Shown here in pieces: positions 9,495 through 31,910 of a DNA stretch of 45,186 bases. Numbering within the stretch: the first letter of the stretch is position 1; every line of letters starts with the position of its first letter. The stretch comes from Lachnospiraceae bacterium (lineage in GTDB: Bacteria; Bacillota; Clostridia; Lachnospirales; Lachnospiraceae). The stretch is taken from NCBI GenBank assembly GCA_021769135.1, contig JAETTM010000032.1:1-45186 (forward strand). The letters run 5' to 3'. The notes beneath the pieces are model-generated. The model did not search any database. It was not told the DNA's origin and saw only the letters and a program-made list of their open reading frames with translations. The position numbers and the translations under genes are program-made.

Positions 9495-9541
9495 TTCAAT
9501 ATTATCCTTTCTTTTAATATTTTTTCCTTAATTTGCTTATC

Positions 9542-10300: not shown

Positions 10301-10438
10301 AAATCCCTCCATAAATCAATAATTCAAAAATTCCATTTTTTTGTAAAACTATCGACTTTTTAGTCCATATTTTTTGTATCTATCAAATTATAACATTAAA
10401 TATCTTCATAATCCATTGTGTTTTTAATCAAAATAATA

Positions 10439-13576: not shown

Positions 13577-15793
13577 TTACTGGGCTCCTGTAAAGAGCAT
13601 GTAAGAACTGCAATCCGCTTTCCTGTCATATGCCAATGCGATGGCAAATGGATTATGCAGAAGAGGAAAATCCCACCCTTCCTTACCGTAAAATTCATCG
13701 CATTCACTCTCTACTTCCAAAGAAGACACTTCATTATCAATCGCAGCGGCGAAATAACGCACCCGCTCCAAAACATTTTCATTTTCCGTAGTCGGCGCAA
13801 CTCCGATATATTCCGCCAAAAAGCCATCTTTCACACGATAAAAGGCCGCGCATTCCAAAGAATCTGTCCGACGGTGTATCCGAAAGGAAAATCCGTAAAG
13901 ATTATCGCCGCTATCCAATGCATAGCGATAAAAATGAAAATTATCCAGAGCATCGACACAATATATATCAGCGGTTCGCCTGATGCGGCCCATGGCATCG
14001 TTCCAATCGGAAAAAAAATCTCCTTCAGGATTGCCGTCAAAGCGATATAAAATACGAATATCCGAAGCAGCCGCATCGTGGCCTTTTTCTCTATCCTTTG
14101 GCCACATGGCATCCAATTCCCCGCCTGCTTCAAAATCCATATAACCGTAATACCAGTTAACAGGCTTGACAGCAATGAAATGTGTAGGACAAGTTTCCCC
14201 CGATGGAAGTATACAATAAGACCAACCCAGTCCTTCCAGATCATTGGCACATAATAAATAATAATCTTTATGGGGAACTCTAACCTGTTCTCCAGGAATA
14301 AGCGGCTGATAAGAATCCATTTGCCCTTCCCCTTCCAAAAGGCTATACAGGCAACCCTCTCCATAAAATTTTTCCGCAATATTCCAAAGGCTGTCTCCAG
14401 GCTCCACTACATAATTCATATCAAAAGCAGGACCCAATCCCAAATGAATATAATCGTCAACATCCGTTCCAGAATAATCAGGCAAAGAAGTTAAAAGACT
14501 CCATGTATCTGTATCCGAAATTTTTCTATATCCCGAAAAATAAGCAAACAAATCCAGTCCAGTATAATCGGGCAATTTATATACACCCGACTGCCTGTAA
14601 TCCTGCACTGTCCTTTCAGGCAAATAATAGCAGTTCGAAATCGTGCCTTTCGAAGGATTCACAGTATTACATGCAATTCCATAAACAGGGGCATAAAAAC
14701 TTACGGAATGCTGATTAATAGAAGCAGAACCCAAATTCAGACAAGTATCTACCGTACCCCCATTGGAGGCACAAATACCGGCGGAAATCAAAGAAGATGT
14801 ATATTCCCAATCCGCCTGCTCCACATGAACAGGTCCGCCGTTAATACATTGCCTGATAATACCCCAATTTGCACCTGCAATACCGCCCGATAACTGGACG
14901 CATTCCACTCTTCCAATATTCCCGCAATTCTCAATAATCCCATCATCCGAAATCCGTCCGGCAATTCCTCCCGCAGCATAATCCATATAAAAAGGCTCAG
15001 GCAAAGAGGAAAGGGTTACACTCCCCTCATTCATACAGCCGCTGACAACACCGTAGTTAGAACGGCAAATTCCTCCAACATATAACGCATCAACACCTAA
15101 CCTATTCTCCGGCTTCTCGGCATCTTCCTCCATTCCCCCTTCCACACTTCCTCTAAAATGACAATCCTTTATCTGACCATAATTTACCCCCACAATACCG
15201 CCGGCACTCCATGCCCCTATAACCTTTACATCGATATCGCAGCCTTCAATAATACCATCATTGGAAAAGCAAAGAGGGGCAGCGGTAACAACATCTATCG
15301 ATTCATCATCATCTTCATACCATGCATCCTCAAAAGTGGTACGAAAAAAAGAATTACGAATCTTAAGATTTGTAATCTTCGCATTCTCCTCTAACACCGT
15401 AAATATAGAAGCTTGCCATGTACTTGAAGTATCGGCATAATATCCCTCCAATGCATATCCTTGCCCGTCGAAGTGGCCATTATAATATACAATAGGATAA
15501 TATCCATTTTCAGGAGCCTCATTTTCCCAATTTTCCCAGTCAGAAGTATCATTTAAAATCAAATCATTCATCAAACGGACATTTAGTTCCATATTTCCTT
15601 TTCTGACTGTAGAAATAAACCACCTGAAATCTTCTTTGGTGGACAACAAATAATAGCCCTCATTATCCTGTTTCGGCCCCTTATCATCCCGAGTCTGATA
15701 TTGATATACAAAAAATACTGCTATACATATCGCGCCAGCACAAAGGCCAATGAAAAAAAGGATACGCTTTCGGTGCTTATTTTTGATGTCCAA
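13577..15793 (-). CDS. Membrane-anchored GLUG-repeat and LysM surface protein
   Basis: A 738-residue protein anchored by one N-terminal hydrophobic segment (ILFFIGLCAGAICIAVFFVY, about residues 10-30), the rest predicted outside the cell. Residues about 180-390 hold roughly six GLUG-type beta-helix repeats with the pattern GGI-G-N-G-I--C-N-G-V, for example GGIAGANWGIIRQCINGGPV. A LysM domain follows at about 460-507 (NYVVEPGDSLWNIAEKFYGEG ... LIPGEQVRVP), expected to bind peptidoglycan. The last 220 residues match no family I recognise. I start at the TTG at 15793, nine bases after GGAGG; an earlier TTG at 15826 overlaps rsmG but has no ribosome binding site. It follows rsmG on the same strand. 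A cell-wall or surface-binding role is inferred. Confidence 0.8.
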   Translation of the reverse strand: MDIKNKHRKRILFFIGLCAGAICIAVFFVYQYQTRDDKGPKQDNEGYYLLSTKEDFRWFISTVRKGNMELNVRLMNDLILNDTSDWENWENEAPENGYYPIVYYNGHFDGQGYALEGYYADTSSTWQASIFTVLEENAKITNLKIRNSFFRTTFEDAWYEDDDESIDVVTAAPLCFSNDGIIEGCDIDVKVIGAWSAGGIVGVNYGQIKDCHFRGSVEGGMEEDAEKPENRLGVDALYVGGICRSNYGVVSGCMNEGSVTLSSLPEPFYMDYAAGGIAGRISDDGIIENCGNIGRVECVQLSGGIAGANWGIIRQCINGGPVHVEQADWEYTSSLISAGICASNGGTVDTCLNLGSASINQHSVSFYAPVYGIACNTVNPSKGTISNCYYLPERTVQDYRQSGVYKLPDYTGLDLFAYFSGYRKISDTDTWSLLTSLPDYSGTDVDDYIHLGLGPAFDMNYVVEPGDSLWNIAEKFYGEGCLYSLLEGEGQMDSYQPLIPGEQVRVPHKDYYLLCANDLEGLGWSYCILPSGETCPTHFIAVKPVNWYYGYMDFEAGGELDAMWPKDREKGHDAAASDIRILYRFDGNPEGDFFSDWNDAMGRIRRTADIYCVDALDNFHFYRYALDSGDNLYGFSFRIHRRTDSLECAAFYRVKDGFLAEYIGVAPTTENENVLERVRYFAAAIDNEVSSLEVESECDEFYGKEGWDFPLLHNPFAIALAYDRKADCSSYMLFTGAQ

Positions 15794-15822
15794 TATATGC
15801 TCCCTCCCCAAAAACAAAAGAT

Positions 15823-16569
15823 TCAATATATAGGCTCTTTAGAAGGAATCCCGGCCTTCCTTGGAAAACCCGTAGGGGTGTTCTTTACTTTACGGATTAC
15901 AATTAAATTCCTATAAATATCCGAAAAAGGCAAAGTATAGTCAACTTTTCCCTCTATTTTTCCACCTAAAACAGCGATTGCATTTTCAGCTTTCACCAAT
16001 TCATCCGAAACCTTTTCCGATTTATAACAAATAAACTTGCCTCCTTTTTTTACAAAAGGAATACAATATTCAGAAAGCGTAGCCAGATTAGCTACTGCTC
16101 TGGAAACTGCCAAATCATATTTTTCCCTTAATTTATCCGGCTTTGCGTAATCTTCCGCCCTTCCATGAACCGTTTCTATTCCGTTAAGCCCAAATTTCTC
16201 TATTACCTCATCCAAAAATTTCACTCTTTTCTGCAAAGAATCCAATAAAGTAACTTTTAAATGGGGAAATGCAATTTTCAAAGGAATACCCGGAAATCCT
16301 GCGCCCGTTCCTATATCTATGAGCTTAATTTCCCCATCCTGATATTTTCTTTCATCTGAAAAGTTATAAGCTTTCACAAGGGATAAACTATCTATGAAAT
16401 GTTTTTTTAAAACCCCGTCCAAATCAGTTATAGCTGTGAGATTCATAAACGAATTCCATTCAATGAGCAATTCATAATATTTTATAAACAATGATATTTG
16501 GTTCTCATCCAATATCACGCCCAATTCATGCAAATCATTATTAAATTGACGCAAATCATAATCTTTCAT
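15823..16569 (-). CDS. rsmG: 16S rRNA (guanine-527-N7)-methyltransferase RsmG
   Basis: SAM-dependent methyltransferase (GidB) that makes m7G527 in 16S rRNA; 248 residues. The SAM-binding motif is LIDIGTGAGFPGIPLKIAFP, followed by VTLLDSLQKRVKFLDEV, and FMNLTAITDLDGVLKKHFIDSL is the typical N-terminal region. YDLAVSRAVANL and GGKFICYKS complete the family pattern. It normally sits right after mnmG in this operon; here an 11.7-kb opposite-strand locus lies between them. Confidence 0.96.
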   Translation of the reverse strand: MKDYDLRQFNNDLHELGVILDENQISLFIKYYELLIEWNSFMNLTAITDLDGVLKKHFIDSLSLVKAYNFSDERKYQDGEIKLIDIGTGAGFPGIPLKIAFPHLKVTLLDSLQKRVKFLDEVIEKFGLNGIETVHGRAEDYAKPDKLREKYDLAVSRAVANLATLSEYCIPFVKKGGKFICYKSEKVSDELVKAENAIAVLGGKIEGKVDYTLPFSDIYRNLIVIRKVKNTPTGFPRKAGIPSKEPIY

Positions 16570-16707: not shown

Positions 16708-17493
16708 ATGTACAGTATTTTAGTAGCAGATGACGAACGATGGATTAGAAAAGGAATCATAAAGATGATTGATGCCGAAAAACTGGAAATCGGAGAAATC
16801 TATGAAGCCGACAACATTACGTCAGCGCTTTCCCAATTCGAACTCCATAAACCGGATATCATTCTATCAGACGTAATATTTCCCACAGAAAACGGATGCG
16901 ATTTTTGCGAGCAGGTTTTTTCCATAAAACCGGAAACAAGAATCGTCATGATTTCAGCCTTCGATAACTTTGAATTTGCCAGAAGAAGCATTAAATACCA
17001 GGCCGTAGATTATCTGCTAAAACCTGTCAGCAAAGAACAGCTGAATCAAGTAATTTCTCAATGCATAGAACAAATAAAAAGACAGAGCGAAAAGGATAAC
17101 CATGCCGTTTCACAATATCTTAAAAACTCAATGGAAGAGGAAACGGAAAAAACTTCCGAAGAAGAAATAGAAAACATTATGAAACGGATGAAATCCAATC
17201 TGACAGAAAAATATACGCTCACGGAGCTTGCAGCTGAATGTTGTCTTTCCGAAGTGTATTTCTCCAGTCTGTTTAAAAAAGTATCGGGAATGTCGCCAAT
17301 GAATTATCTGGCCCATATTCGGATTGAGAAAGCATGTGAACTTATAAGCTCCACCAACTGGAGAATGGTTAAAATTGCCAACTATGTAGGATATGCGGAT
17401 TATCAGTATTTTACAAAAGTATTTAAAAAAGAAACTGGTAAAACGCCTGGGGAATACAAAGAAACTATACGGAAGGAATTTGATAATGATTAA
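16708..17493 (+). CDS. YesN-type response regulator with AraC HTH
   Basis: A 261-residue response regulator. The receiver domain (1-125) has ILVADDERWIRKG, the phospho-acceptor Asp55 in DIILSDVIFP, Ser/Thr in MISAFD, and Lys in DYLLKPVSKEQL. The C-terminal AraC/XylS domain has two HTHs: YTLTELAAECCLSEVYFSSLFKKVSG and WRMVKIANYVGYADYQYFTKVFKKETGKTPGEYK. It overlaps the next gene, the histidine kinase, by 8 bases, so the two form a YesMN-type pair. Such pairs usually activate adjacent sugar ABC transporter operons, here the one starting at 19587. The probable binding site is the tandem repeat at 19428-19470. Confidence 0.94.
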   Translation: MYSILVADDERWIRKGIIKMIDAEKLEIGEIYEADNITSALSQFELHKPDIILSDVIFPTENGCDFCEQVFSIKPETRIVMISAFDNFEFARRSIKYQAVDYLLKPVSKEQLNQVISQCIEQIKRQSEKDNHAVSQYLKNSMEEETEKTSEEEIENIMKRMKSNLTEKYTLTELAAECCLSEVYFSSLFKKVSGMSPMNYLAHIRIEKACELISSTNWRMVKIANYVGYADYQYFTKVFKKETGKTPGEYKETIRKEFDND

Positions 17494-19306
17494 AAAAATT
17501 ATAAATTTCTTTAAAAACATTTCTATCCGATATAAGCTGCTTCTTACCTTTTTCTTATTGCTTTTCGTTATCGCTGCAGGGGTTACTTTTGCCATTAATT
17601 ATTATAACCAACGTTTTATCAGCAACATGACACAAGAAAGCAACAAACAAATTATGAAGGAGATGAATGCGGAACTCGACAGCATCTACGGCCAAATCAA
17701 CCAATTATATACTACCTTCAATAACCAGGATTTATACAAAATATTTTTAAATGAAGACAATAATTCGAATTTTGAAAATGTATATAAGGAATTGCAATAT
17801 GAGAGCCTTATTAAAAATATTATCAATGCGAACAATCTACAGGAACATATCTCCGGTATATTGCTCTATGCAAACCATGACGCCAATAGTTATATAGGAA
17901 CAGGGGCTATCAATCCGGATTTTAAAATTGAAGAGTCCGACTGGTATAAAAAATTTATTAAAGTTCAAACCGGACGGCTCCTTTACGGCCCCTTGAATGA
18001 AGACTTTAAATCGGAGAACAGCAAAAGGAATAATGTCATATATTTTATCCGGAACTGGAACATCCCTATAAGCAGCGGCATTTCCCGAGGCGAATACCCA
18101 TTCATCCTTTTTAATATCAATTCTTCCATATTTATGGATATTTTTAGAAAATATTCCGGCAATACAAAAGTAGTTCTTGTAACCGATTACTATCATCAAC
18201 CCCTATTTACAGTAAATATGGGAAAAGAGGAAGAAGAGCAGATTACAGGCATTATAAAGGAACAAATGTTAGACTTTAAGGAACGGGAAACTTATTTTAA
18301 TAAGAAATGGTCCATTACCCGGACTTTTAATAATAATTTCGGATGGATTATTTACTCCGCAGAATCTACCAGAGATGTTTTTCGGGATATGAACCAACTG
18401 ATTCGAAATATATACCTGATTATCTTATCAGCCGGCGGGGCCGCTATTCTTCTGGCTTTATATATGACCAGAAAAATTATCATGCCTTTAACTATTTTAA
18501 ACCAGATGATAAATAAAATAGAAGAAAAAGATGTATTTTTAGATATTCAAAGCCAGGATGAGCTGGGACAGATTGGAGAACGATTCAATCAGATGAAAAG
18601 GCGCATGCAGGATATGGCTGAAAAGATGTACTTAAGCAAAATGCAGGAAAAAGAAGCCCAGCTAAGCGCCTTGCAGGCCCAAATAAATCCCCATTTCCTT
18701 TATAATACCCTGGATAATATCTATTGTATTGCCCAAGTAGAAGGAAGCGAACATATCATCAGCTTAACGGACAATCTGTCCAAAATGATGCGCTACAGTA
18801 TGAGTATGAAAAATCATTATGTACCGTTGGCCAAGGAATTGGAGCATGTGAAAAGCTATGTAAATATAATAAATGTACGTTTCGATGACTCTATCCTCCT
18901 TGAATTTCAAGTGGAAGATGCCTGGGATGTTGAAATTCCAAAACTATCCATGCAGCCTCTGGCAGAAAATGCATGGAATCATGGCATTCTTCCAAAGCAA
19001 GGCCACCACGGAACCATCCAATTTCATATCTCCGTAGAAGAAGATACTTGCATCATACAAGTATTGGATGATGGAGTGGGTATTTCTTTGGAACAAAGCC
19101 AGGAAATCAATAAAAGCTTAGAGCAGATAAACTATGATAACAGCACGTCCAGCTCCGGCTCCGGCATTGCCCTTAAAAACGTAAATAACCGGATTATGCT
19201 TGAAGACGGAGAAGGCTACGGAGTCCGTCTCTATCCAAGAGACGAGGGAGGCTGCCGTGTTATTGTACGGATGAAACTGCACAAGCAAAAGGAAAAGACA
19301 TTCTAA
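17486..19306 (+). CDS. YesM-type sensor histidine kinase
   Basis: A 606-residue membrane kinase. TM1 is at about 18-39 and TM2 at about 307-327, with a 265-residue extracytoplasmic sensor region between them that probably folds as a Cache-like domain. HAMP follows at about 328-380 and a His_kinase domain with the phospho-acceptor His403 in QINPHFLYNTLDNIY. The ATPase domain has the N box PLAENAWNHGI and the G boxes LDDGVGI and SGSGIALKNVNNRI. The start is the ATG at 17486 after GGAAGGAA; the frame opens earlier, inside the regulator gene, without support. It should sense an extracellular glycan or a bound binding protein and phosphorylate the upstream AraC-type regulator. Confidence 0.94.
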   Translation: MIKKIINFFKNISIRYKLLLTFFLLLFVIAAGVTFAINYYNQRFISNMTQESNKQIMKEMNAELDSIYGQINQLYTTFNNQDLYKIFLNEDNNSNFENVYKELQYESLIKNIINANNLQEHISGILLYANHDANSYIGTGAINPDFKIEESDWYKKFIKVQTGRLLYGPLNEDFKSENSKRNNVIYFIRNWNIPISSGISRGEYPFILFNINSSIFMDIFRKYSGNTKVVLVTDYYHQPLFTVNMGKEEEEQITGIIKEQMLDFKERETYFNKKWSITRTFNNNFGWIIYSAESTRDVFRDMNQLIRNIYLIILSAGGAAILLALYMTRKIIMPLTILNQMINKIEEKDVFLDIQSQDELGQIGERFNQMKRRMQDMAEKMYLSKMQEKEAQLSALQAQINPHFLYNTLDNIYCIAQVEGSEHIISLTDNLSKMMRYSMSMKNHYVPLAKELEHVKSYVNIINVRFDDSILLEFQVEDAWDVEIPKLSMQPLAENAWNHGILPKQGHHGTIQFHISVEEDTCIIQVLDDGVGISLEQSQEINKSLEQINYDNSTSSSGSGIALKNVNNRIMLEDGEGYGVRLYPRDEGGCRVIVRMKLHKQKEKTF

Positions 19307-19340
19307 TTTATTAAAAACCGCTTAGAAATATAATGATATG

Positions 19341-19396
19341 ATACCTCTAAAGTAGACAGATTAAATATAGAAATCTGTTGCTTTGGAGGTATTTTT
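19341..19396 (+). terminator. Terminator after the two-component operon
   Basis: ATACCTC-TAAAG-TAGACAGATT pairs with AATCTGTTGCTTTGGAGGTAT in a long, slightly bulged stem around an A-rich loop, followed by TTTTTC. It separates the regulator operon from the transporter operon. Confidence 0.75.
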
Positions 19397-19427
19397 CATG
19401 CAAATTATAAAAAATCTATAATTAAAG

Positions 19428-19470
19428 TTAAAATAATACACTGTTTTTATTAAAATAGTACACTGTTTTT
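19428..19470 (+). promoter_or_regulatory. Tandem 21-bp direct repeat, likely AraC-type activator site
   Basis: Two 21-base copies (19428-19448 and 19450-19470) differ at one position and share the core TACACTGTTTTT. Their 22-bp spacing is two helical turns, the geometry AraC-type activators use. TTGAAA at 19470-19475 touches the second copy and could be a -35, with AT-rich -10 candidates (TAATAA, 19491-19499) downstream. The first permease gene begins at 19587. Binding by the adjacent YesN-type regulator is inferred from position and spacing. Confidence 0.7.
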
Positions 19471-19586
19471 TGAAATTAAATCCACTATATTAATAATAAG
19501 GAAATAAAACTAAATAGGACTAAATAAAAAAATGCACAAAATCAACAAAACGCCAAAAGGAAAACCACGCAGAAATGAGGTGAAAT

Positions 19587-20495
19587 ATGCGTAAAAAAAG
19601 AACACCATGGCAGTATATAAAACCCTATCTTTTTTTACTGCCAATCTATCTATTAATGATAACCTTTAAATATATTCCCTTTGGAATAGCGATTGAGAAA
19701 TCCTTTTTCAACTGGAACGGCGCCAATATCAATCAGTTTATCGGATTTGACAATTATATTCAGGCGCTTAAAGACCCGACTTTTATGATTGGCCTGAAAA
19801 ACGTAGGTGTAATTTCCATCGCATATATTGTAATTGTTTTGACCATGCCGCTCCTAGCAGCTGAATTGCTCTACGCGGTACATTCCAGGAAAAAACAGTA
19901 TATCATACGGACCGCTTTTACCTTTCCTATGGTTGTACCCACTGTAGTCATTATACTTTTGTGGAAATGGATATTAGCCGGAGACAATGGCGTATTAAAC
20001 AATATACTAACCAATATGGGGCTGGAAAGCCTGACTGCACCATGGCTCGGCAGCACGAAAACAGCCCTTGGCTCCATTATAGCCATAGGATTTCCATGGC
20101 TTGGCAGCGCATCCCTTGGCGGGCTTCAATTCCTTCTTTATTACGGGGCGCTGCAAGGCACATCGCAAGATATGTTTGAAGCTGCAGAAATCGACGGGGC
20201 AAATATTTTACAACGGTTTTTTAAAATCGATGTTCCTATGCTTGCCAGCCAGATGAAACTTACCGTAACCCTGGCAATCATCAATGCGGTACAGGTTTTC
20301 GATTCGGTATATATTCTCACAAAGGGAGGGCCGGGAACAGCAACCATCACGCCGTCCGTGGTCCTGTATGAGCAAGGCTTTACCTACAAAAAAATGGGAT
20401 ATTCATCCGCCATCGGCGTTATCATGTTTGCAATTATTATGGTTCTCACTATTATCAACCAGATGATGATGAAGAATACGGAGAAAATGGATTAA
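19587..20495 (+). CDS. Sugar ABC transporter permease (MalF/UgpA type)
   Basis: A 302-residue inner-membrane permease with six hydrophobic segments. The cytoplasmic EAA loop is near residue 200 (MFEAAEIDGANILQRFFKIDVPML), the contact point for the ATPase. The C-terminal VFDSVYILTKGGPGTATITPSVVLYEQGF is typical of CUT1 family permeases that take up oligosaccharides. GAGGTGA lies just before the ATG. It is the first gene of the transporter operon. No ATP-binding subunit is encoded in the cluster, so an MsmX-like shared ATPase elsewhere in the genome is expected. Confidence 0.95.
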   Translation: MRKKRTPWQYIKPYLFLLPIYLLMITFKYIPFGIAIEKSFFNWNGANINQFIGFDNYIQALKDPTFMIGLKNVGVISIAYIVIVLTMPLLAAELLYAVHSRKKQYIIRTAFTFPMVVPTVVIILLWKWILAGDNGVLNNILTNMGLESLTAPWLGSTKTALGSIIAIGFPWLGSASLGGLQFLLYYGALQGTSQDMFEAAEIDGANILQRFFKIDVPMLASQMKLTVTLAIINAVQVFDSVYILTKGGPGTATITPSVVLYEQGFTYKKMGYSSAIGVIMFAIIMVLTIINQMMMKNTEKMD

Positions 20496-20507
20496 AAGGA
20501 GGATTTC

Positions 20508-21326
20508 ATGAGTAAAATAATCAGTTTTTTAAGCCGCATACTATTAGGAATCCTGTTAGTTCTTACCCTGCTGCCCTTTTATCTGTTAGTTATCAATGCA
20601 TTTAAAAGCCAAAGCGAAATCATACTAAACCCATTCCAATGGGCGGACAGCTGGCAGTTCCAGAATTTTGCAAAAGCTGCTCCTCAGATAATACGCCCTA
20701 TGGTCAATACACTTTTTGTAACGGCGGCCATTATCATAATAACCATTATTGTATCGCTGCTGGCCAGCTATGCATTCGTTCGATATGATAGGTTTTTTGG
20801 GAAAGAAGTGCTTTATTTTGGCATCATCGCTCTTCTTATGATACCCGGATTTGTAATGCTCATACCTCAATTTGTACAAATTACCAACCTGGGCATGTAC
20901 AATACCTTTCTGGGGTTAATTTTGCCGCCGGCCGCTTATCAGGTAGCCATGGGAACTTTTTTGACCAGGTCTTCCATGGAATCTATTTCCAAAAGCCTTT
21001 TTGAAGCGGCGGAAATTGAAGGAGCCAACGATATGGATATCCTGGTAAAGGTAGTGCTTCCTCTATCGAAACCTATCCTTTCCACGGTAACTATTATGAC
21101 TGGACTTAATGCCTGGAATAACTACATTTGGCCCCTTGTATCCACTACTGGAGAAAAGACTCAGCAAATAGCAGTGGCTCTGACCAAAATTATCGTTTCC
21201 GTATCCGATGGGCAGGGCGTGAAATTTGCAGCTTATATCATCGCTTCCCTGCCGTTGATTATACTGTTCTGCTTTGCAAGCAAATATTTTGTAGAAGGGC
21301 TGACTTCCGGCGCCGTAAAAGGTTAA
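20508..21326 (+). CDS. Sugar ABC transporter permease (MalG/UgpE type)
   Basis: A 272-residue CUT1 permease and partner of the gene 12 bases upstream. It has six membrane segments, the EAA loop LFEAAEIEGANDMDILVKVVLPLSKP, and the C-terminal YFVEGLTSGAVKG ending that is nearly diagnostic of MalG-type subunits. An AGGAGG ribosome binding site is present. The two permeases together would form the translocation channel for an oligosaccharide or glycopeptide. Confidence 0.95.
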   Translation: MSKIISFLSRILLGILLVLTLLPFYLLVINAFKSQSEIILNPFQWADSWQFQNFAKAAPQIIRPMVNTLFVTAAIIIITIIVSLLASYAFVRYDRFFGKEVLYFGIIALLMIPGFVMLIPQFVQITNLGMYNTFLGLILPPAAYQVAMGTFLTRSSMESISKSLFEAAEIEGANDMDILVKVVLPLSKPILSTVTIMTGLNAWNNYIWPLVSTTGEKTQQIAVALTKIIVSVSDGQGVKFAAYIIASLPLIILFCFASKYFVEGLTSGAVKG

Positions 21327-21411
21327 CATACCGTCCGCACAATTACAGAAAAAGTTAAACTATTATAATACCAATTAACTTATTAAAATTTAAAATTAAG
21401 GAGGAAATACT

Positions 21412-22905
21412 ATGAAAAGAAAAATGCTAAACTCGCTGTTATGCGCCACCATCACAGTATCTATGCTGCTTACCGGATGCGGAAATGGAAACGGGAATGG
21501 GGAAACCAGCACTCCGGACAATACCCAGGCCGAAGCACCGGATAATACAAAAGAAGAAAGCGGAAATGAGCAGGCAGCAGAAGAAACTCAAAATTCAGAT
21601 ATTACCCTTATATTCGCACAGGACCTTGGAATCGATGAAACGGCTAATAATATAACCAATGAAATCCTTCAAGCTTATCAGGAAAAAACAGGCGTAACCA
21701 TTCAGTTTGAAAACCAGCCTACTGACTACAGAACCTGGTTAACTACCCAGTTTACAGCCAAACAGGGGCCCGATGTATACAGCGGCATCCTTTATGACAT
21801 GTCCAGCGATTATGAAGCAGGCTATCTGTATAATTTTGCAGAGCTTTACCAGCAGGAGAGCGCCTATGACCCCGGAAAGCCATGGAAAGATACACTTCCG
21901 GAATCCATTTCCGAAAGGATGTACATTACTGAAAATGACGTGCCAGGCTATCCATCATCCACGTCGGTAGTCCGCATTTTCTATAACAAAACTTTATTTG
22001 ATGCGGCAGGGGCAGCCATTCCCACTACATGGGCCGAATTTATGGATGCCTGTGCAAAGCTGAAAGAGGCGGGAACTACGCCTTTTGGATTCCCCAATGC
22101 TTCCAAAGATGACCTTTCCTGGTTATGGTTCAACAATTCCATATGCAGCCAGTTAAACGGAGATATGACTAGTAAACTGGATATATCAGGGAATGGCTAT
22201 GCGGAATTGAATGAAATTGTAAAAGGCTTTGACGACGGAACATTGAACTTTACTTCCGACCAGATGAAACAATCGTATGAACTGATGAAAGAATTTTCCG
22301 AATATTGGACCTCTGATTATAACGGACTTGACCAGGCATCCGCTATCGATATGTTCATCCGCGGGGAAGTTGCCATGGTACAGGCTATGTCCACCAACCT
22401 TACGAGCATTGCGGCAAACGTAGGAGACAGTTTTGAATACGGCGTAATGCCCATTCCGGTTATTACCGATGAAACTTCCGAATATGCAATGGGCCAGTCT
22501 GTAATCTTAGGCGGGCAGCCGGATATTATCTATGGAGCAAATAAAGCGCTGGAATCCGACCCTGCAAAGCTGGCGGCAGCTATTGATTTCGTACAATATA
22601 TGTCTTCTCCTGAAGTACAGACCCAATATATGGAAGCTATCAACCGTATCCCGTTAGCAACCAGCACAGAACTTCCTGAACGTCTCTCAGGTTTCATTAT
22701 TACCGAAGACGCTTTAAGGGTTCCTTATTATACCGGCATCAGCGGCGAACTTCGCGACTTCTTCTGCCGCGGCGGCCAGCTTTACCTGGAAGGCAGCTAC
22801 AGCACCGATGAATTTGCACAATATGTACAGGAATCTTTTGTAACTGTCCTTGATAAAATCAAAATCGAAAATGACTGGAACGCAGAAAATAACTACGGCC
22901 TATAA
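21412..22905 (+). CDS. Sugar ABC transporter substrate-binding lipoprotein
   Basis: A 497-residue extracellular solute-binding protein (family 1). The signal peptide ends in the lipobox LLTGC, with lipidated Cys23, followed by a Gly/Asn/Glu-rich linker to about residue 60. The mature part shows LIFAQDLGIDETANNI, a YNKTLFDAAGAAIPTTWAEFMDACAKLKEAGTTPFGF hinge typical of CUT1 binding proteins, and GEVAMVQAMSTNLTSI. It has a strong AAGGAGG ribosome binding site and lies 85 bases after the second permease. The specificity should decide what the locus imports; a sulfated or fucosylated glycan is inferred from the enzymes downstream. Confidence 0.95.
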   Translation: MKRKMLNSLLCATITVSMLLTGCGNGNGNGETSTPDNTQAEAPDNTKEESGNEQAAEETQNSDITLIFAQDLGIDETANNITNEILQAYQEKTGVTIQFENQPTDYRTWLTTQFTAKQGPDVYSGILYDMSSDYEAGYLYNFAELYQQESAYDPGKPWKDTLPESISERMYITENDVPGYPSSTSVVRIFYNKTLFDAAGAAIPTTWAEFMDACAKLKEAGTTPFGFPNASKDDLSWLWFNNSICSQLNGDMTSKLDISGNGYAELNEIVKGFDDGTLNFTSDQMKQSYELMKEFSEYWTSDYNGLDQASAIDMFIRGEVAMVQAMSTNLTSIAANVGDSFEYGVMPIPVITDETSEYAMGQSVILGGQPDIIYGANKALESDPAKLAAAIDFVQYMSSPEVQTQYMEAINRIPLATSTELPERLSGFIITEDALRVPYYTGISGELRDFFCRGGQLYLEGSYSTDEFAQYVQESFVTVLDKIKIENDWNAENNYGL

Positions 22906-22940
22906 TCATTAATCTTATATCTGAAATACCTAAATGTATT

Positions 22941-22973
22941 ATAGTACGGCGGTCAAATCGGCCGCCGTATTAT
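22941..22973 (+). terminator. Intercistronic hairpin between binding protein and sulfatase
   Basis: TACGGCGG (22945-22952) pairs perfectly with CCGCCGTA (22962-22969), with extra A-T pairs outside. No T-run follows, so it more likely stabilises the 3' end of the binding-protein message or terminates partially, leaving less message for the enzymes. Confidence 0.65.
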
Positions 22974-22994
22974 AAAATGGAGGAAAAAAGAAAA

Positions 22995-24461
22995 ATGAAT
23001 AAACCAAATTTAATTTATATTTTGGCAGATGATATGGGATATGGGGATATTTCCGCATTGAACGAAAACTGCGGGTTTAAAACGCCTAATCTGGATAAAA
23101 TGGCCGAACAGGGAATGTGTTTTACAGATGCACATTCCACTTCTGCTGTCTGCACCCCATCCAGATACGGTATCTTAACAGGACGTTACAATTGGCGTTC
23201 CCGTTTAAAATCTTATGTAATGGGAGGTTATTCAGAAGCGCTGATTGAAGAAGGAAGAAAAACGATTGCCGATTTTTTAAAGGCCGATGGATATCATACG
23301 GCTATGATTGGAAAATGGCACCTGGGCATGAATTTTGCAAAAGAGCCGGGATTTGAAGAGAAGCCTGATTTTGCCGCTTGCGATTATGTGGATTATAGCG
23401 GAAAAATCGAACGCTCCCCTATCTCCAACGGCTTCGATTACTTTTACGGTATCAGCGGTTCCCTGGATATGCCTCCTTATATTTATATTGAAAATGACCA
23501 TTTTACAGCATTGCCTGACCATATGACAAAAGGAACCGGAAAAGGATTTTTCCGGGAAGGCCCTACTGCCCCCGGCTTTATCCATGAAAAAGTATTGGAT
23601 GAATTGACGGAAAAAGTATTGGAACAAATAGAAAAAAATAAAGAAAATCCATTTTTTATTTATTTTCCTATGCCCGCTCCGCACACACCTATTCTTCCCT
23701 CCAAACAATTCCAGGGAAAATCGGGAACGAACGAATATGGGGATTTTGTCCTTCACGTAGACCATGTAGTCGGACAAATTAACCAAAAATTAAATGAAGA
23801 AGGCTTGCTTGAAAATACCATTGTAATATATACTTCGGATAATGGATGCTCTCCTATGGCCGACTACCCTGAATTATTGCAAAAAGGACACAACCCAAGC
23901 TATATCTTTAGGGGAACCAAGGCAGATATTTATGAAGGAGGGCACAGAATTCCATTGATTGTCCAATGGCCCAGGGAAATACCCGGCGGAACTACTTGTA
24001 AAAAAATAGTATGTTTAAGCGACATTATGGCCACTATGTGCGATATACTGGAAATAGATATGGGAGAAAGGGATGGGGTTGACAGTGTCAGCAATCTTCC
24101 TTTGTGGAAAAACCCCGAAGGGGAAGACGTAAGGGAAGATTTGATTCATCAAAGTATCGACGGCTCCCTATCCATTCGAAAAGGTAAATGGAAACTTGAA
24201 ATGTGTCCTGGCTCCGGAGGCTGGTCGGACCCAAAACCGGGAGAAGAAGACCCTGCAGCGCCCAGGTTCCAGCTATATGACCTATCCATGGATATTGGCG
24301 AAAAAAACAATATCATTAACCAATATCCCGAAAAAGCTTCCGAACTTAAGAAAATACTTAAAAATCATATTTTCCGGGGAAGAAGCACGCCGGGACCCAT
24401 ACAAAAAAATAACGGACAGGCCATTTGGGAAACAATCAAATGGGCGGAAGAGGAGGATTAA
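22995..24461 (+). CDS. Type I sulfatase (formylglycine-dependent), cytosolic
   Basis: A 488-residue sulfatase of the arylsulfatase/GalNAc-6-sulfatase type. Metal ligands are in YILADDMGYGD (Asp12, Asp13). The active-site signature SAVCTPSRYGILTGR contains Cys53, which must be converted to formylglycine. Further catalytic residues are in GKWHLGM and YTSDNGCSP. No signal peptide precedes the catalytic domain, so it should act in the cytosol on imported sugar. The start at 22995 follows GGAGG by 11 bases; an ATG at 22977 overlaps that site. Cys-type sulfatases need a maturase (anaerobic radical-SAM enzyme in such bacteria), which is not in the window. The exact sulfate position cannot be told from sequence. 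Confidence 0.93.
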   Translation: MNKPNLIYILADDMGYGDISALNENCGFKTPNLDKMAEQGMCFTDAHSTSAVCTPSRYGILTGRYNWRSRLKSYVMGGYSEALIEEGRKTIADFLKADGYHTAMIGKWHLGMNFAKEPGFEEKPDFAACDYVDYSGKIERSPISNGFDYFYGISGSLDMPPYIYIENDHFTALPDHMTKGTGKGFFREGPTAPGFIHEKVLDELTEKVLEQIEKNKENPFFIYFPMPAPHTPILPSKQFQGKSGTNEYGDFVLHVDHVVGQINQKLNEEGLLENTIVIYTSDNGCSPMADYPELLQKGHNPSYIFRGTKADIYEGGHRIPLIVQWPREIPGGTTCKKIVCLSDIMATMCDILEIDMGERDGVDSVSNLPLWKNPEGEDVREDLIHQSIDGSLSIRKGKWKLEMCPGSGGWSDPKPGEEDPAAPRFQLYDLSMDIGEKNNIINQYPEKASELKKILKNHIFRGRSTPGPIQKNNGQAIWETIKWAEEED

Positions 24462-24466
24462 ACAAT

Positions 24467-25774
24467 ATGTATCAATTTAATCGGGAAGAATACAATAAAC
24501 GCATGGAATGGTATCAGGATGCCAGGTTCGGCATGTTCATCCATTGGGGATTATACTCCATTCCCGCCAGAGGCGAGTGGATTCGCAGCACGGAAGAAAT
24601 GACAAAAGAAGAATATATGAAATATTTCTATGAATTCGATGCCCGTGATTATGACCCGAAAAAATGGGCAAAAGCGGCAAAAGAAGCCGGCATGAAATAT
24701 ATGGTATTTACAGCAAAACATCATGATGGATTTTGCCTTTTTGACAGTAAGTATACGGATTTTAAGTCCACCAATACGAAATGTAAAAGAGATTTGGTTG
24801 CGGAATATGTGGAAGCCGTCCGCGGGGAAGGGTTAAAAGTAGGTTTATATTTTACCTTGCTCGACTGGTATGACGAAAACTATCCCCATTACAAAGACAG
24901 AAACCATCCTATGCGCAACCATCCGGAATACAGCAACGAACATCGGGATTTCAGCAAATATATAGATTATCTCCATAAGCAGGTAGAAGAAATCTGTACT
25001 AACTATGGAAAATTGGATATACTTTGGTTCGATTTCTCTTATGATGATATGAGGGGCGAAAAATGGGAAGCTGCCAAACTCATCAATATGGTAAGAAAAC
25101 TTCAGCCTGGAGTTATCATTGACAATAGGCTTGAAGTAAGCGGCGAAGGGAGAGGTTCTTTGGCAGAATGCAATCCTTCCCCTTATCATGGCGACTTCGT
25201 CAGCCCGGAACAAATCATTCCGCCCGAAGGGCTTAAGGACATCGAAGGAAACCCCCTCGCCTGGGAAGCCTGTGTAACAATGAACAATAACTGGGGCTAC
25301 CACGGAACAGATAAATTCTTTAAGCCCGCTCCTATGTTGATTAAAAAACTGGTAGAATGCGTTTCAAAAGGAGGCAATCTCCTGCTCAACGTAGGACCGG
25401 ATGCTTATGGGAATTTTCCTCCGGAATCCACTGCTATTTTAAAGGAAATTGGAAAATGGATGGATAAAAATTATGAAAGTATTTACGGATGTGGCATGGC
25501 TAATGTACCCAAGCCGGATTATGGCCGCGTAACAAAAAAAGGGAATACATATTATTTTCATATGTATGAAAATACCATCGGCCCGGTACCTCTTTTAGGA
25601 CTGGATAAATCCAAGGTAAAAAAAATACGGGCATTGGCTTCAGGTTATGAAATTCCCATATCTACAAACTGGGTTCATAGCGATTACCCGGATATCGTAT
25701 TTGCAGATTTAGGGCCGAATCCTGTTTTGCCGGATGACATTGATTATGTATTAGCAGTGGAAATGGAAGATTAA
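24467..25774 (+). CDS. GH29 alpha-L-fucosidase, cytosolic
   Basis: A 435-residue exo-fucosidase that releases L-fucose from glycans. Family GH29 marks: RFGMFIHWGLYSIPARGEW (residues 20-38), MVFTAKHHDGFCLFDSKYTDF (79-99), and the catalytic nucleophile Asp189 in KLDILWFDFSYDD. VSKGGNLLLNVGPDAYGNFP is also typical. No signal peptide is present. The start at 24467 follows GGAGGA by about nine bases; it lies five bases after the sulfatase stop, so the two are co-translated. Intracellular location implies that the substrate is an imported small oligosaccharide. The C-terminal 90 residues look like a beta-sandwich. Confidence 0.95.
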   Translation: MYQFNREEYNKRMEWYQDARFGMFIHWGLYSIPARGEWIRSTEEMTKEEYMKYFYEFDARDYDPKKWAKAAKEAGMKYMVFTAKHHDGFCLFDSKYTDFKSTNTKCKRDLVAEYVEAVRGEGLKVGLYFTLLDWYDENYPHYKDRNHPMRNHPEYSNEHRDFSKYIDYLHKQVEEICTNYGKLDILWFDFSYDDMRGEKWEAAKLINMVRKLQPGVIIDNRLEVSGEGRGSLAECNPSPYHGDFVSPEQIIPPEGLKDIEGNPLAWEACVTMNNNWGYHGTDKFFKPAPMLIKKLVECVSKGGNLLLNVGPDAYGNFPPESTAILKEIGKWMDKNYESIYGCGMANVPKPDYGRVTKKGNTYYFHMYENTIGPVPLLGLDKSKVKKIRALASGYEIPISTNWVHSDYPDIVFADLGPNPVLPDDIDYVLAVEMED

Positions 25775-25789
25775 ATATTGGGAGGGATT

Positions 25790-28438
25790 ATGTTTTCTGA
25801 AGAATTCAAAAAATACGCGGAAGAAAAATATAATGCAAGGCTGCCCCTTTTTGGAGGCATGAATAAAGAAATAACAGAAAAAATAAAGGAATTATCAGAA
25901 TTTGAAAGAGCCTTATTAATGAAATTCCTATATGGTACGATGCCTCTTCGGGATGCAGGGGAATACGATTTTTCCATATTTTTATCCTATGTGGACCATG
26001 CCCTGAAGCTTCGTAAAGCTCTGCCATGGTGCAGGGAGCTTCCTGAAGATTTATTCTTGCATTATGTATTATATTATCGTATCAATACGGAAAACATTAG
26101 TCCCTGCCGGACATTCTTTTACCAACACCTAGAAGAACGTATTTCAGGAAAAACAATGGAGGAAGCGATTCTGGAAGTAAATTACTGGTGCGCTGAGCAA
26201 GCCAGCTATGCAGCTTCGGACGAAAGAACCATTTCTCCCATAGGCGTTTACTTTTCAGGCACAGGGCGCTGTGGGGAAGAGTCCACTTTCACCGTATCCG
26301 CCCTTCGCAGCGTGGGAATTCCTGCAAGACAAGTCTACGCTCCCTGGTGGGCTCACTGCGATGATAACCATGCCTGGGTAGAAACGTATGTAGATGGACA
26401 TTGGCGCTTTCTAGGAGCATGCGAACCGGAAGAAGTATTGAATAAAGGATGGTTTTTGGGGGCTGCTTCCAGAGCCCTCCTTATAAACAGCAGGACTTTT
26501 TTCGATTATTGGACGGAAAAATCGACACCTCCAATGCAAAAAGATTATATTGGCAAAGAAGGAAGCATTTATTATTATAACAGTACATCTCTGTACGCTG
26601 AAACATGCCGTTTTCATATTCAAGTCATCGACCAGGAAGGAATTTTGCAAGATAATGCGGAAATAATTCTGCAAGTAATGAATATGGCGGAATATAAAAA
26701 GCTGGCTAAACTTATAACGGATAAAAATGGATGTGCTTCCATTACCATAGGCTTTGGGGATATCCGTATTCTGGCGTATAAAGGCGGATGGATGGGAGAA
26801 TTAAATTGCTCAACAAAAGAACAGGACAAGGTCTGCATAAAACTGAATTGGAACATAGAGAGGGATTTTAAAAATATTTTAACTCATAATGCCTCAAATG
26901 AATCCAAATATCAGGCGATTATAAAAGCGCCCACGGAATCATACAAAAATCAAGTATCTTTAAGTAAAATACAACAGGAAAGGGGCAGAAAAAGGAGACA
27001 GGAAGCGGAAGAAAAACGGGCAAAAAAACTGATAAATTATTTCGATGGGGAAAAAGCTTTGGAATTTCCGGAAGAAAAAGAAATATTGGAAATATCAAAA
27101 GGAAATTTTCATGAAATTTTACAATTTTTATCCGCCGATTCCAACCCTGACAGGAAAGCTATATTGCACAGCCTTTCCAAAAAAGATTATAAAGATGTAA
27201 CGGCGGAAACTCTGGAAGCTTTTTTAAACAATCCTTTTGTTAATAAAGAAACCCTATCCCATATAGGAGAAAATAATTATATAAATTATATATTATGTCC
27301 AAGAATTTATAATGAAGAGCTGACCCCGTATCCTCCCTTTATCCGCAGTTATTTTTCGGAAAAACAATTGGAGTCTTTTCGTAAGAATCCTTTTAGCGTT
27401 TGGGATTATATTGAAAAAAATATCGAAGATATGGCTGGGGAAACCTATGAAATGATTTATTCTACCCCAATCGGCTGCTTAAAATTAAAAAAAGGAACAT
27501 ATATAAGCAAAAAAATCCTTTTTGCAGCTATTTTAAGAAGCATCGGTATTCCTGCAAGATTATGTCAAAAGGATATGGAATTAGAAATATATATGGAAGA
27601 AAAGCAAGGGCAGCCATCATGGAAAAAAGTCAATAACCCCGCTGAAAGCACGGCACTTGGCTCATTGCTCGCGGAAATGAAATCCGGGAAAAAATGTACT
27701 TTGCTTTTATCCGTACAAGACGGAACAAAATGGATTTACCATCAAACATGGACCATCGGCAGATTTCAGGGCATTCGGTTTGAGACTTTAAACTATGACG
27801 GTATTTCTTTTGACAATAATGCGCTATCTCTGGAATTAGAAGAAGGTATTTATCAAATAATCTCCGCTAACCGTATTTCAAACGGAAATCAGCATGTATT
27901 AATTTATCGATTTACAATGGAAGAAGGTACAACAAAAAAACTTTTCTTATCCATGTTTGAAAGTAAGACAGAAGATTTATTATGCAGCCATCAATTATCC
28001 GATTTTGAAATTACTGCTATAACTGGAAGCGTAAATTATTTATCAGATTTAATTAATAATGATATAAATCATAATAAAAAAGCTATCCTTGCTTTTCTGG
28101 AAGTAGGACAGGAACCAACGGAACATGTATTAAATGAAATGTTAAGCCAGAAAGAACTTTTGAAAGCTCTTTCTCCCGAAATCCTGTTTATTCTCCGGGA
28201 AACGGAAGATGTTGATAATCCTGCATTAAAAGCGGTATTAAAAGAATTTCCAAATATTCGCGTGTTTTTTGATGAAGATTTTAATAACAGAGAAACGATA
28301 GCAAGATGCATGTATGTGGACCCGGAGAAGCTCCCTCTTCTTATCGTAGCAAAACAAGGGATGACAGGAATATATGGATGCAGCGGTTACAACGTAGGAA
28401 GCATAAATTTAATTTGCAAAATTATAAGTTTAAATTAA
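25790..28438 (+). CDS. Large transglutaminase-like protein, two TG-fold copies
   Basis: An 882-residue cytosolic protein starting at the ATG at 25790 after GGGAGG; no signal peptide. Residues about 1-235 form an N-terminal helical part plus a transglutaminase/peptidase-like core: GRCGEESTFTVSALRSVGIPAR with Cys161 and CDDNHAWVETYVDG with His194; the third position region reads FLGACEPE. A beta-rich segment follows (about 260-350), then a charged helix (about 390-415). Around residues 545-600 a second copy (KKGTYISKKILFAAILRSIGIPAR) aligns with the first at identical spacing but has Tyr571 for the Cys, so it should be inactive. The last 130 residues resemble a thioredoxin fold without CxxC. 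It is the final gene of the operon. The reaction is unknown; amide cleavage or transfer on a glycopeptide is inferred. Confidence 0.85.
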   Translation: MFSEEFKKYAEEKYNARLPLFGGMNKEITEKIKELSEFERALLMKFLYGTMPLRDAGEYDFSIFLSYVDHALKLRKALPWCRELPEDLFLHYVLYYRINTENISPCRTFFYQHLEERISGKTMEEAILEVNYWCAEQASYAASDERTISPIGVYFSGTGRCGEESTFTVSALRSVGIPARQVYAPWWAHCDDNHAWVETYVDGHWRFLGACEPEEVLNKGWFLGAASRALLINSRTFFDYWTEKSTPPMQKDYIGKEGSIYYYNSTSLYAETCRFHIQVIDQEGILQDNAEIILQVMNMAEYKKLAKLITDKNGCASITIGFGDIRILAYKGGWMGELNCSTKEQDKVCIKLNWNIERDFKNILTHNASNESKYQAIIKAPTESYKNQVSLSKIQQERGRKRRQEAEEKRAKKLINYFDGEKALEFPEEKEILEISKGNFHEILQFLSADSNPDRKAILHSLSKKDYKDVTAETLEAFLNNPFVNKETLSHIGENNYINYILCPRIYNEELTPYPPFIRSYFSEKQLESFRKNPFSVWDYIEKNIEDMAGETYEMIYSTPIGCLKLKKGTYISKKILFAAILRSIGIPARLCQKDMELEIYMEEKQGQPSWKKVNNPAESTALGSLLAEMKSGKKCTLLLSVQDGTKWIYHQTWTIGRFQGIRFETLNYDGISFDNNALSLELEEGIYQIISANRISNGNQHVLIYRFTMEEGTTKKLFLSMFESKTEDLLCSHQLSDFEITAITGSVNYLSDLINNDINHNKKAILAFLEVGQEPTEHVLNEMLSQKELLKALSPEILFILRETEDVDNPALKAVLKEFPNIRVFFDEDFNNRETIARCMYVDPEKLPLLIVAKQGMTGIYGCSGYNVGSINLICKIISLN

Positions 28439-28453
28439 ATTCAAGATATTTGC

Positions 28454-28484
28454 AGCACCGGCCGGAATCGCTCCGGACGGTGCT
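28454..28484. terminator. Terminator between convergent operon and mnmG
   Basis: AGCACCG-G-CCGGA (28454-28466) pairs with TCCGG-A-CGGTGCT (28472-28484) around a 5-base loop, followed by TATTTCC on the plus strand. It ends the glycan operon and touches the mnmG stop codon. Confidence 0.75.
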
Positions 28485-30369
28485 ATTTCCTGTTATACTG
28501 CTCCAGATAAACAAGCAACACAGAAATATCCGCCGGGGAAACGCCGGAAATCCGCGAAGCCTGGCCCACCGATACCGGCTTAAAATCAATTAACTTCTGC
28601 CTTGCCTCCAGACGGAGGCTTCCAATATCATTATAATCCAGATTATCCGGTATCCTCTTCTTCTCCATTTTTTTAAATTGGGCCACCTGCCTCAACTGCC
28701 TTGTTATATAACCTTCGTATTTTATCTCAATTTCCACCTGATCTATCACATCTTTCGGCAGAGGCTTCCTGCCTTCATCAATTTCGGAAAGCATCTCATA
28801 GGACAATTCAGGGCGGCACATGAGCTCTGCCATATTTGTGCCCGTTTTTAATTCCGTGCTTCCTTTTGAAATGAGAAACTCCTGTATTTTTTTTGAACCG
28901 CCCACAGGAGAATTTTTCAAGCGCTCCACTTCTTCTTCTATCATTTTCTTTTTTAACAAAGTAGCCTGATAAACTTCTTCGGATACAAGCCCTGCCCGAT
29001 ACCCTTTCTCCCTCAAACGCAAATCCGCGTTATCCTGCCGCAGCAAAAGCCGGTATTCCGCCCTGGAAGTCATCATCCGGTAAGGTTCAAAATTATCCTT
29101 AGTGACCAAATCATCAATCAGCACTCCTATATAAGCTTCGGAACGGTCTAAGGTAATCTGCTCCTTTCCCTGAATAGAAAGGGACGCATTTATCCCCGCA
29201 ATCAACCCCTGGGCGGCCGCCTCTTCATATCCGCTGCTTCCGTTAAACTGGCCCCCGCTGAAAAGTCCCTTTATCTTTTTAAATTCCAAAGTGGGATACA
29301 ATTGCTTCGGATTAATACAATCATATTCAATGGCATAAGCATTCCTAACGATTTTGCAATGTTCCAATCCCGGCACTGTCCGGTACATGGCAAGCTGCAC
29401 GTCTTCCGGAAGAGAGGAAGACATTCCCCCCACATACATTTCATTTGTATGTAAGCCCTCAGGCTCTATAAATACCTGATGCCTTTCCTTATCCGCAAAT
29501 TTAACCACTTTATCTTCTATAGAAGGACAATACCTAGGCCCTGTACCTTCAATAACTCCTGCATATATAGGGGAACGGTCTAAATTTTCCCTTATAATAT
29601 TATGGGTTTTTTCATTAGTATAAGTCAGCCAGCAGGAAACCTGGTCTATCTGTACATCCTCCGGATTGGTAGAAAAAGAAAAAGGAACTATTTTTTCATC
29701 CCCAAACTGTTCTTCCATTTTAGAATAATCAATGCTTCTCCCATCCATTCTGGCAGGAGTTCCTGTTTTAAACCTTCTCATCTCAATTCCAAGGCTCTTT
29801 AAGGAATCCGTCAAATGGTTTGCCGCCTGCAATCCGTTAGGCCCGGTATAAGTAATGGCTTCCCCGCAAAGGCATCTGGCCTTCAAATAAGTTCCGGTAC
29901 AAAGAATCACCGCTTTACATTCATAAACAGCGCCTGTAAATGTTTTTACCCCTGCTATCCTGTTTCCTTCCGTTAAACATTCACAGACCTCCGCCTGTTT
30001 TATAGTGAGCCTTTCCTGATTTTCAAGTACCTTTCGCATAGCCCTGGAATATTCCGCTTTATCGGCCTGTGCCCGAAGCGAATGAACAGCGGGGCCTTTG
30101 GACTGGTTCAGCATTTTAGACTGAATAAAAGTCCTGTCTATCACTTTCCCCATTTCTCCCCCAAGGGCATCCACCTCCCTTACAAGATGTCCTTTGGAAG
30201 AACCTCCTATATTTGGGTTACAGGGCATTAAAGCAATACTATCCACACTGACGGTGAAAATAACCGTCTCCATCCCCATCCTTGCGCAGGCGAGGGCCGC
30301 TTCACATCCCGCATGGCCTGCCCCCACTACACAAACATCCACTTTTTCCCTTATTTCCAATCCAGGCAT
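28483..30369 (-). CDS. mnmG: tRNA modification enzyme MnmG (GidA)
   Basis: FAD-dependent subunit of the MnmEG complex that installs cmnm5 on wobble uridine 34 of several tRNAs; 628 residues, the normal length. FAD-binding [21 protein letters not shown] is at the N-terminus, then [27 protein letters not shown] and [53 protein letters not shown] and the C-terminal [27 protein letters not shown] complete the family pattern. AAAGGA precedes the ATG. mnmE lies 70 bases upstream on the same strand. Confidence 0.97.
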
Positions 30370-30439
30370 TTATCCTTTTTCCTTCCTGTATATAAAACTA
30401 TGAGTCAATTCATATACCAATTATGAACCAATTTATATA

Positions 30440-31888: not shown

Positions 31889-31910
31889 ATAACAACTCAC
31901 TCTTTCCTAA

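Follow-up and report, generated by a model that had tools for sequence, protein, structure and literature searches.

A Lachnospiraceae locus encoding a sulfatase, a fucosidase and a transglutaminase-fold protein: a candidate route for uptake and cytosolic breakdown of sulfated, fucosylated glycopeptides

Gene content of the locus

We analysed a 45,186-nucleotide stretch of DNA from a Lachnospiraceae bacterium (contig JAETTM010000032.1 of assembly GCA_021769135.1), referred to below as the window, in which 8 open reading frames (ORFs) occupy positions 16708-28438 of the + strand. They encode a YesMN pair, parts of a CUT1-type ATP-binding cassette (ABC) importer, a Cys-type sulfatase, an alpha-L-fucosidase of glycoside hydrolase family 29 (GH29) and a transglutaminase-fold protein, here called TG, and they may together serve the uptake and intracellular breakdown of sulfated, fucosylated glycopeptides. 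An earlier note on this DNA had described the same set of genes as running in one direction, with which coordinates, strand and Pfam assignments agree.

The run opens with a YesN-type response regulator (16708..17493; Response_reg and HTH_AraC) and a YesM-type sensor kinase (17486..19306), for which His_kinase and HATPase_c scored above the cut-off and HAMP and dCache just below it; the kinase ORF was listed from 17393, and the likely start near 17486 comes from reading, with no check of the ribosome-binding site. Two CUT1-type permeases follow (19587..20495 and 20508..21326; both BPD_transp_1), together with a solute-binding lipoprotein (21412..22905; SBP_bac_8/SBP_bac_1) in which we read the lipobox LLTGC; the earlier note had likewise given this protein a lipobox. 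The three enzymes are a Cys-type S1 sulfatase with the motif CTPSR, of the form C-x-P-x-R (22977..24461; Sulfatase), the GH29 enzyme (24425..25774; Alpha_L_fucos, 317 bits vs a cut-off of 25.2) and TG, a protein of 886 amino acids (25778..28438; Transglut_core). Each of the 8 proteins has at least one Pfam domain above the gathering cut-off. Gaps within the run are short, the widest being ~280 bp, and the genes are presumably co-transcribed; the flanking genes, rsmG and mnmG, have the opposite orientation.

The importer is represented by the binding protein and the two permeases. Since no ABC ATPase gene was found among the 8 genes, the locus is not complete, contrary to the earlier note. The solved relatives of the binding protein are distant (best 48 bits) and indicated no ligand. 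Between the binding protein and sulfatase genes lies a hairpin (22939..22975, + strand; z -5.7) whose 16-bp stem includes two G-U pairs, and which perhaps keeps expression of the binding protein higher. A different 13-bp stem occupies the same gap in a related locus (L204), and no notable hairpin was found there in two others (L205 and L207).

The sulfatase and the fucosidase

Export signals were judged by Kyte-Doolittle hydropathy of the N-termini rather than by SignalP. The sulfatase, GH29 and TG scored 0.94, 0.80 and 0.32, respectively, compared to 2.19 for the binding protein; when upstream in-frame extensions were included, the respective values for the enzymes were 1.70, 0.80 and 1.06. 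No hydrophobic N-terminal segment was evident in any of the three, from listed or extended starts, consistent with the earlier view that they lack signal peptides, and signal peptides at alternative starts were rejected on the hydropathy of the extensions. Sequences resembling ribosome-binding sites (GGAGG/AGGAGG, by eye) place the real starts slightly inside those listed, at ~22995 for the sulfatase, ~24467 for GH29 and ~25790 for TG, making a signal peptide even less likely.

The host genome (4.43 Mb, 152 contigs, 97% complete) contains one TG gene, 13 strong sulfatase matches including that of the locus, three GH29 genes and three fucose isomerase matches above the cut-off, and its contig C28 encodes an anaerobic sulfatase-maturating enzyme, the sole one above its cut-off (379 bits vs 349.45). 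The 11 other sulfatases sampled were all Cys-type, and neither these nor the two other GH29 enzymes displayed a hydrophobic N-terminal segment. This sample comprised 11 of the 12 other strong matches, one further 55-bit match and one below the cut-off being left aside, and included one sulfatase (L103) with a doubtful start. The idea that leaderless enzymes distinguish the locus was accordingly rejected. Because these other enzymes likewise lack a hydrophobic N-terminus, desulfation inside the cell looks to be general in this bacterium, as an import-then-desulfate habit. As judged by phmmer, 7 of the 9 other sulfatase loci examined in this genome (L100-L108) contain CUT1-type permeases, and 6 of the 9 a kinase and regulator of the locus type.

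The nearest solved relatives of the sulfatase are of the S1_15 type, an affinity drawn from the top solved matches, which include 6s20 (257 bits), which we take to be BT3333, and 9bas and 9bau, named S1_15A and S1_15B. When the dyad was matched by reading the alignment, the Asp was kept, while the Arg was replaced by Met in the sulfatases of the window and of loci L055 and L056; the His225 region lies outside the alignment inspected. These positions correspond to D173 and R174, the galacto-recognition dyad described for BT3333 in PMC6994673. With Met in place of the dyad Arg, likeness to S1_15 probably does not fix the position or the sugar that is desulfated.

We next consider the distribution of the sulfatase. 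A whole-protein search of 397 genomes of the family returned TG relatives in 48, while sulfatase orthologues sharing 70% identity or more were present in 7 of the 397, all 7 of them among the 48. The hypergeometric probability of this co-occurrence is 2.5e-7, or 1.9e-5 for the 5/5 that remain with one genome per genus and the window's own excluded; both values ignore ancestry and use a 70% cut chosen after the list was viewed. All sulfatase matches at E 1e-100 amounted to 10 genomes, of which 7 have TG. In L204, L206 and L207 the YesMN pair, permeases, binding protein and sulfatase lie together, with no GH29 or TG within the fetched stretches; in L205 the contig ends after the sulfatase and binding protein, and in genome G179 a GH29 match begins ~9 kb beyond the sulfatase stretch. 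The sulfatase of L055 and L192 is grouped with GH29, TG, CutC and M28. Thus, the sulfatase is tied to import, and its link with TG is more one of co-occurrence than of position. A PALP-family enzyme, cysteine-synthase-like by eye, is encoded near the TG and sulfatase genes of the latter two loci (L055:13041-13988 and L192:2716-3651; Pfam on L055 only), and it might use the released sulfur.

The best solved match of the GH29 enzyme was 6gn6 (550 bits; next 233), presumably isoenzyme 1 of P. thiaminolyticus (aLfuk1). In other genomes, four GH29 relatives with genes next to TG share 53-78% identity with the window enzyme. A sequence-network study places aLfuk1 in a GH29 cluster with members active on aryl-fucosides, and its results section describes broad alpha1,2/6 specificity for two cluster members (PMC11189522).

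The transglutaminase-fold protein and its neighbours

TG consists of a PNGase-like (peptide:N-glycanase-like) Transglut_core domain bearing Cys165 and His198, an Ig-like domain at about residues 281-352 and a thioredoxin-like fold, apparently near the C-terminus. Pfam reported two Transglut_core stretches, the second of which we read as a degenerate repeat. An AlphaFold model of the protein (44 sequences) had a mean predicted local distance difference test (pLDDT) score of 89, and Foldseek matched this model to a thioredoxin-like fold, to 3e8v, which is a fragment from B. fragilis, and to a putative cysteine protease. The N-terminal domain modelled alone reached a pLDDT of 90, and a structural search with it retrieved cysteine hydrolases weakly (TM ~0.3-0.4 on the query).

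Similarity to PNGases, which remove N-glycans from animal and yeast proteins, emerged more clearly from profile comparison. When the sequences of all solved structures were searched with a profile of the TG domain, 4 matches were significant, 3 of them PNGases: 2f4m (mouse PNGase, E 1.5e-4), 3isr (2.2e-4), 3esw (1.3e-3) and 1x3w (1.9e-3), with the next at 0.07. We take 3esw and 1x3w to be yeast PNGase chains. The TG/PNGase alignment pairs the GRCGE, H-x-W-x-E and terminal ACE/SCE stretches.

A species-level scan (one genome per species, 84,980 species) returned at least 592 TG relatives, the best 80 of which span Lachnospiraceae, Oscillospiraceae, Paenibacillus, Bifidobacterium, Olsenella and Bacteroidales. 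Neighbourhoods were compared in two sets of loci. The first consists of 50 TG loci from 47 genomes (the window included; three genomes gave two loci, and a fragment in genome G161 was left out), and the second of 79 loci, those of the best 80 less L132, which gave no TG ORF. The two share contigs and are not independent; 129 denotes both. Cys165 was unvarying in all 127 of the 129 TG sequences that cover it and His198 in all 128, and Glu167, Asn197, Glu202 and Glu216 were likewise invariant in 127-128 copies. The best 80 were found with patterns including GRCGEES and GACEP, so that conservation there is partly by selection; the same six residues were also invariant in the 44-row alignment, which came from a motif-independent search. 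In the C-terminal part, E-P (residues 779-780) was invariant and H783 was present in 126 of 127 copies.

Neighbours took their labels from phmmer, with a single representative per gene type; Pfam was applied to those representatives and to selected cases. At a distance of no more than 6 kb from TG, the first set contained CutC in 25 of the 50 loci, GH29 in 21, a CUT1-type permease in 15, an M17 aminopeptidase and an oligopeptide-type ABC ATPase (by representative) in 11 each, M28 in 6, and GH18 and GH20 in 5 each. The corresponding neighbours in the second set were GH29 (29 of 79), CutC (27), GH18 (18) and M17 (12). Of the 43 TG genomes that carry CutC, 27 had it no more than 6 kb from TG, two of these being fusions, compared to 0.21 genomes expected from random placement; the same expectation for GH29 was 0.73 genomes, and both ignore shared ancestry. 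CutC is usually annotated as a copper homeostasis protein, yet in these loci it keeps company with genes for glycan and peptide processing. It forms one ORF with TG in two species of one genus (L098:7866-11015, examined by Pfam, and L099:8926-12099), and this fusion, together with adjacency, suggests that CutC may be a partner of TG. In PMC5700972, which deals with N-glycan enzymes as well, CutC appears as a predicted partner of VirK.

A few neighbours elsewhere are diagnostic and seem to point to N-glycans. A GH85 protein with SLH repeats is encoded 300 bp after TG in Paenibacillus brevis (L118), and TG lies between GH38 and GH92 in a Bacteroidales locus (L179); GH38 also occurs within 3 kb of TG in L177, L088, L147 and L061. 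The main text of an N-glycan review (PMC10154615) names GH18, GH85 and PNGase as the three families that free N-glycans and a B. longum GH38 that removes a core mannose; it does not mention transglutaminase or CutC. As GH18 also includes chitinases (same source), GH18 neighbours are not proof of an N-glycan role. Among the 48 TG genomes, GH85 matches occurred in 7, one strong (G003) and six near the cut-off, and Asparaginase_2, the glycosylasparaginase family, in 1, a count that covers TG genomes only.

With respect to location, a hydrophobic N-terminus was found in 5 of 129 TG proteins and 1 of 58 GH29 proteins across both sets, and in 0 of 27 CutC and 0 of 19 GH18 proteins of the second. The TG N-terminus was lipoprotein-like in 4 of 5 Bacteroidetes loci, and elsewhere it was hydrophobic only in L155.

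The wider surroundings of the locus include rsmG (15823-16569) and mnmG/mnmE (28483-31900), both read from translations. ParA/ParB-like genes lie at 8604-10312 (Pfam), and the window is therefore probably near a replication origin. Beside rsmG, positions 13577-15826 encode a 749-amino-acid protein with GLUG repeats, a LysM match just below the cut-off and a hydrophobic N-terminal segment. Promoter-like sites showed no clear excess over shuffled sequence (44 vs 38.3 +/- 5.5), nor was there an excess of terminator-like sites (10 vs 12.3 +/- 4.3).

Interpretation and known systems

Taken together, these findings are best explained, in our view, by the regulated uptake of sulfated, fucosylated glycopeptides and their breakdown in the cytosol with the help of a PNGase-like enzyme that deviates from the PNGase triad, a reading we regard as moderately probable. 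The YesMN pair would sense the ligand, and the lipoprotein and CUT1 permeases, served by an ATPase that we assume to be encoded elsewhere, would bring in a small glycoconjugate carrying sulfate and fucose. This is most likely a glycopeptide or glycoamino acid that remains once a glycoprotein has been cut by other enzymes. Inside the cell the sulfatase would take off sulfate and GH29 would take off fucose, perhaps in that order, and TG would hydrolyse an amide bond by means of Cys165 and His198; the most likely target is the bond between sugar and Asn that PNGase cuts, and failing that a peptide bond. Import followed by cytosolic degradation had been proposed in the earlier note and is well supported by gene content. 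Its further proposal of glycopeptide salvage with a PNGase-like step appears to have the most support of any reading of the TG module and gains from the neighbourhoods and the profile match, but the aspartate of PNGase is missing. The link to sulfated mucin that it had drawn is not established, given an S1_15-like sulfatase lacking the dyad Arg and diagnostic TG neighbours that point instead to N-glycans.

Several observations weigh against glycopeptide dismantling by a PNGase-like enzyme. The structural search with the N-terminal domain found no close relative and ranked PNGase no higher than 15th (E 2.1e-3), and 3isr, a putative cysteine protease, nearly equals mouse PNGase by profile. The column of the aligned PNGase Asp, presumably the catalytic one, is occupied by Gly213 in all 128 copies covered; the TG domain thus looks PNGase-like but fails the Cys-His-Asp triad. 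N-glycan-diagnostic neighbours occur in only 6 of the 129 TG loci (GH38 in five, GH85 in one, GH92 in one). In the host genome CutC lies on a different contig from TG, and searches of that genome found no M17, no GH85 and no match to Asparaginase_2. The importer is of the CUT1 sugar type, not the peptide type. According to the discussion in PMC11189522, the alpha1,2/3/4/6 substrates assayed were not significantly hydrolysed by members of the GH29 cluster. Three remoter relatives of the sulfatase (48, 52 and 60% identity) belong to genomes without TG. Finally, besides the window the sulfatase joins TG only in L055 and L056/L192, representing two species of one genus.

Some of these points favour other roles for TG. 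It could act as a cysteine peptidase, shortening the peptide part of glycopeptides that have been imported, rather than as a deglycosylating amidase, and 3isr, CPR-C4 and LapG all outrank PNGase structurally, 3isr being close to it by profile as well; we nonetheless consider this somewhat unlikely, since PNGases make up three of the four significant profile matches and have the GRCGE and ACE/SCE stretches in common with TG, and since separate M17 and M28 peptidases adjoin TG in other genomes. A catalytically dead, binding-only protein would account for the universal Gly at the Asp column and fits the presence of a degenerate second Transglut_core stretch and a thioredoxin-like fold, but the six invariant residues, which include Cys165 and His198 and hold in the motif-independent alignment, make this improbable.

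Other alternatives concern the locus as a whole. The operon could import peptide-free sulfated, fucosylated oligosaccharides, of mucin type or other, with TG acting elsewhere, for example on another amide. The CUT1-type importer, the YesMN-CUT1-sulfatase groupings of L204, L206 and L207 and the permeases in most other sulfatase loci of the host are as this explanation would have them, whereas the recurrent proximity of TG to peptidases and to importers of peptides, and at a few loci to N-glycan enzymes, is not, nor is its presence in every genome with a close sulfatase orthologue; we judge it unlikely. That the 8 genes are a chance composite of unrelated genes near the origin seems very improbable: although the YesMN-CUT1-sulfatase and GH29-TG parts are found apart elsewhere, the genes form a closely spaced same-strand run, GH29-TG recurs, sulfatase, GH29 and TG recur together in another genus, and the sulfatase co-occurs with TG.

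Glycopeptide salvage through a PNGase-like step remains the explanation we favour, and it invites a broader proposal that we offer tentatively, as a possibility short of even likelihood: TG proteins may be an unrecognised family of bacterial, mostly cytosolic NGLY1-like deglycosylating amidases without the classical Asp, with CutC as a partner in glycopeptide breakdown and, in the present locus, with a sulfatase-importer module that admits sulfated glycopeptides. If so, in many bacteria of gut and soil the last stage of glycoprotein breakdown would take place inside the cell by means of a PNGase-like enzyme, and sulfated glycopeptides could be consumed without desulfation at the surface. CutC function would gain a concrete test, and a substrate class would be at hand for a GH29 group in which the members assayed act poorly on the usual fucosylated oligosaccharides. 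In the open-access literature (subscription papers and preprints lying outside this search), we found no assay of a TG-type enzyme and nothing joining TG, CutC, fucosidase and glycopeptides.

Among known systems, the Fuc-GlcNAc-Asn pathway of Lactobacillus casei is the nearest described, and we propose the same logic with different parts. As set out in PMC6960285, the alf-2 system likewise imports a fucosylated glycoamino acid (Fuc-alpha1,6-GlcNAc-Asn), defucosylates it intracellularly and cleaves GlcNAc-Asn in the cytosol, and larger glycopeptides and a peptidase were also proposed. It relies on the permease AlfH and the glycosylasparaginase AsnA2, whereas the present locus has a CUT1 ABC importer, a sulfatase and a candidate amidase of transglutaminase fold. 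Of the enzymes, the sulfatase resembles S1_15 sulfatases in keeping the Asp of the O4-binding dyad, and differs from them in the replacement of Arg by Met; the B. thetaiotaomicron enzymes are placed, for the most part from predictions, in the periplasm or on the cell surface (PMC10154612), whereas the locus enzyme has no signal peptide. GH29 is akin, through its best solved match 6gn6, to cluster 3, which includes P. thiaminolyticus aLfuk1 and R. gnavus ATCC_03833. According to PMC11189522 the natural substrate of this cluster is unsettled, and the setting of the locus suggests a glycopeptide or a sulfated glycan. TG itself finds its best profile match in NGLY1/Png1-type PNGase, with which it has the GRCGE, H-x-W-x-E and CE stretches in common and the Cys and His kept; that enzyme is cytosolic, as TG probably is. 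NGLY1-type PNGase uses a Cys-His-Asp triad (PMC9102325), whereas TG has Gly213 at the aligned Asp. TG is further unlike it in being bacterial, in its accessory domains and in its place beside glycosidases and importers.

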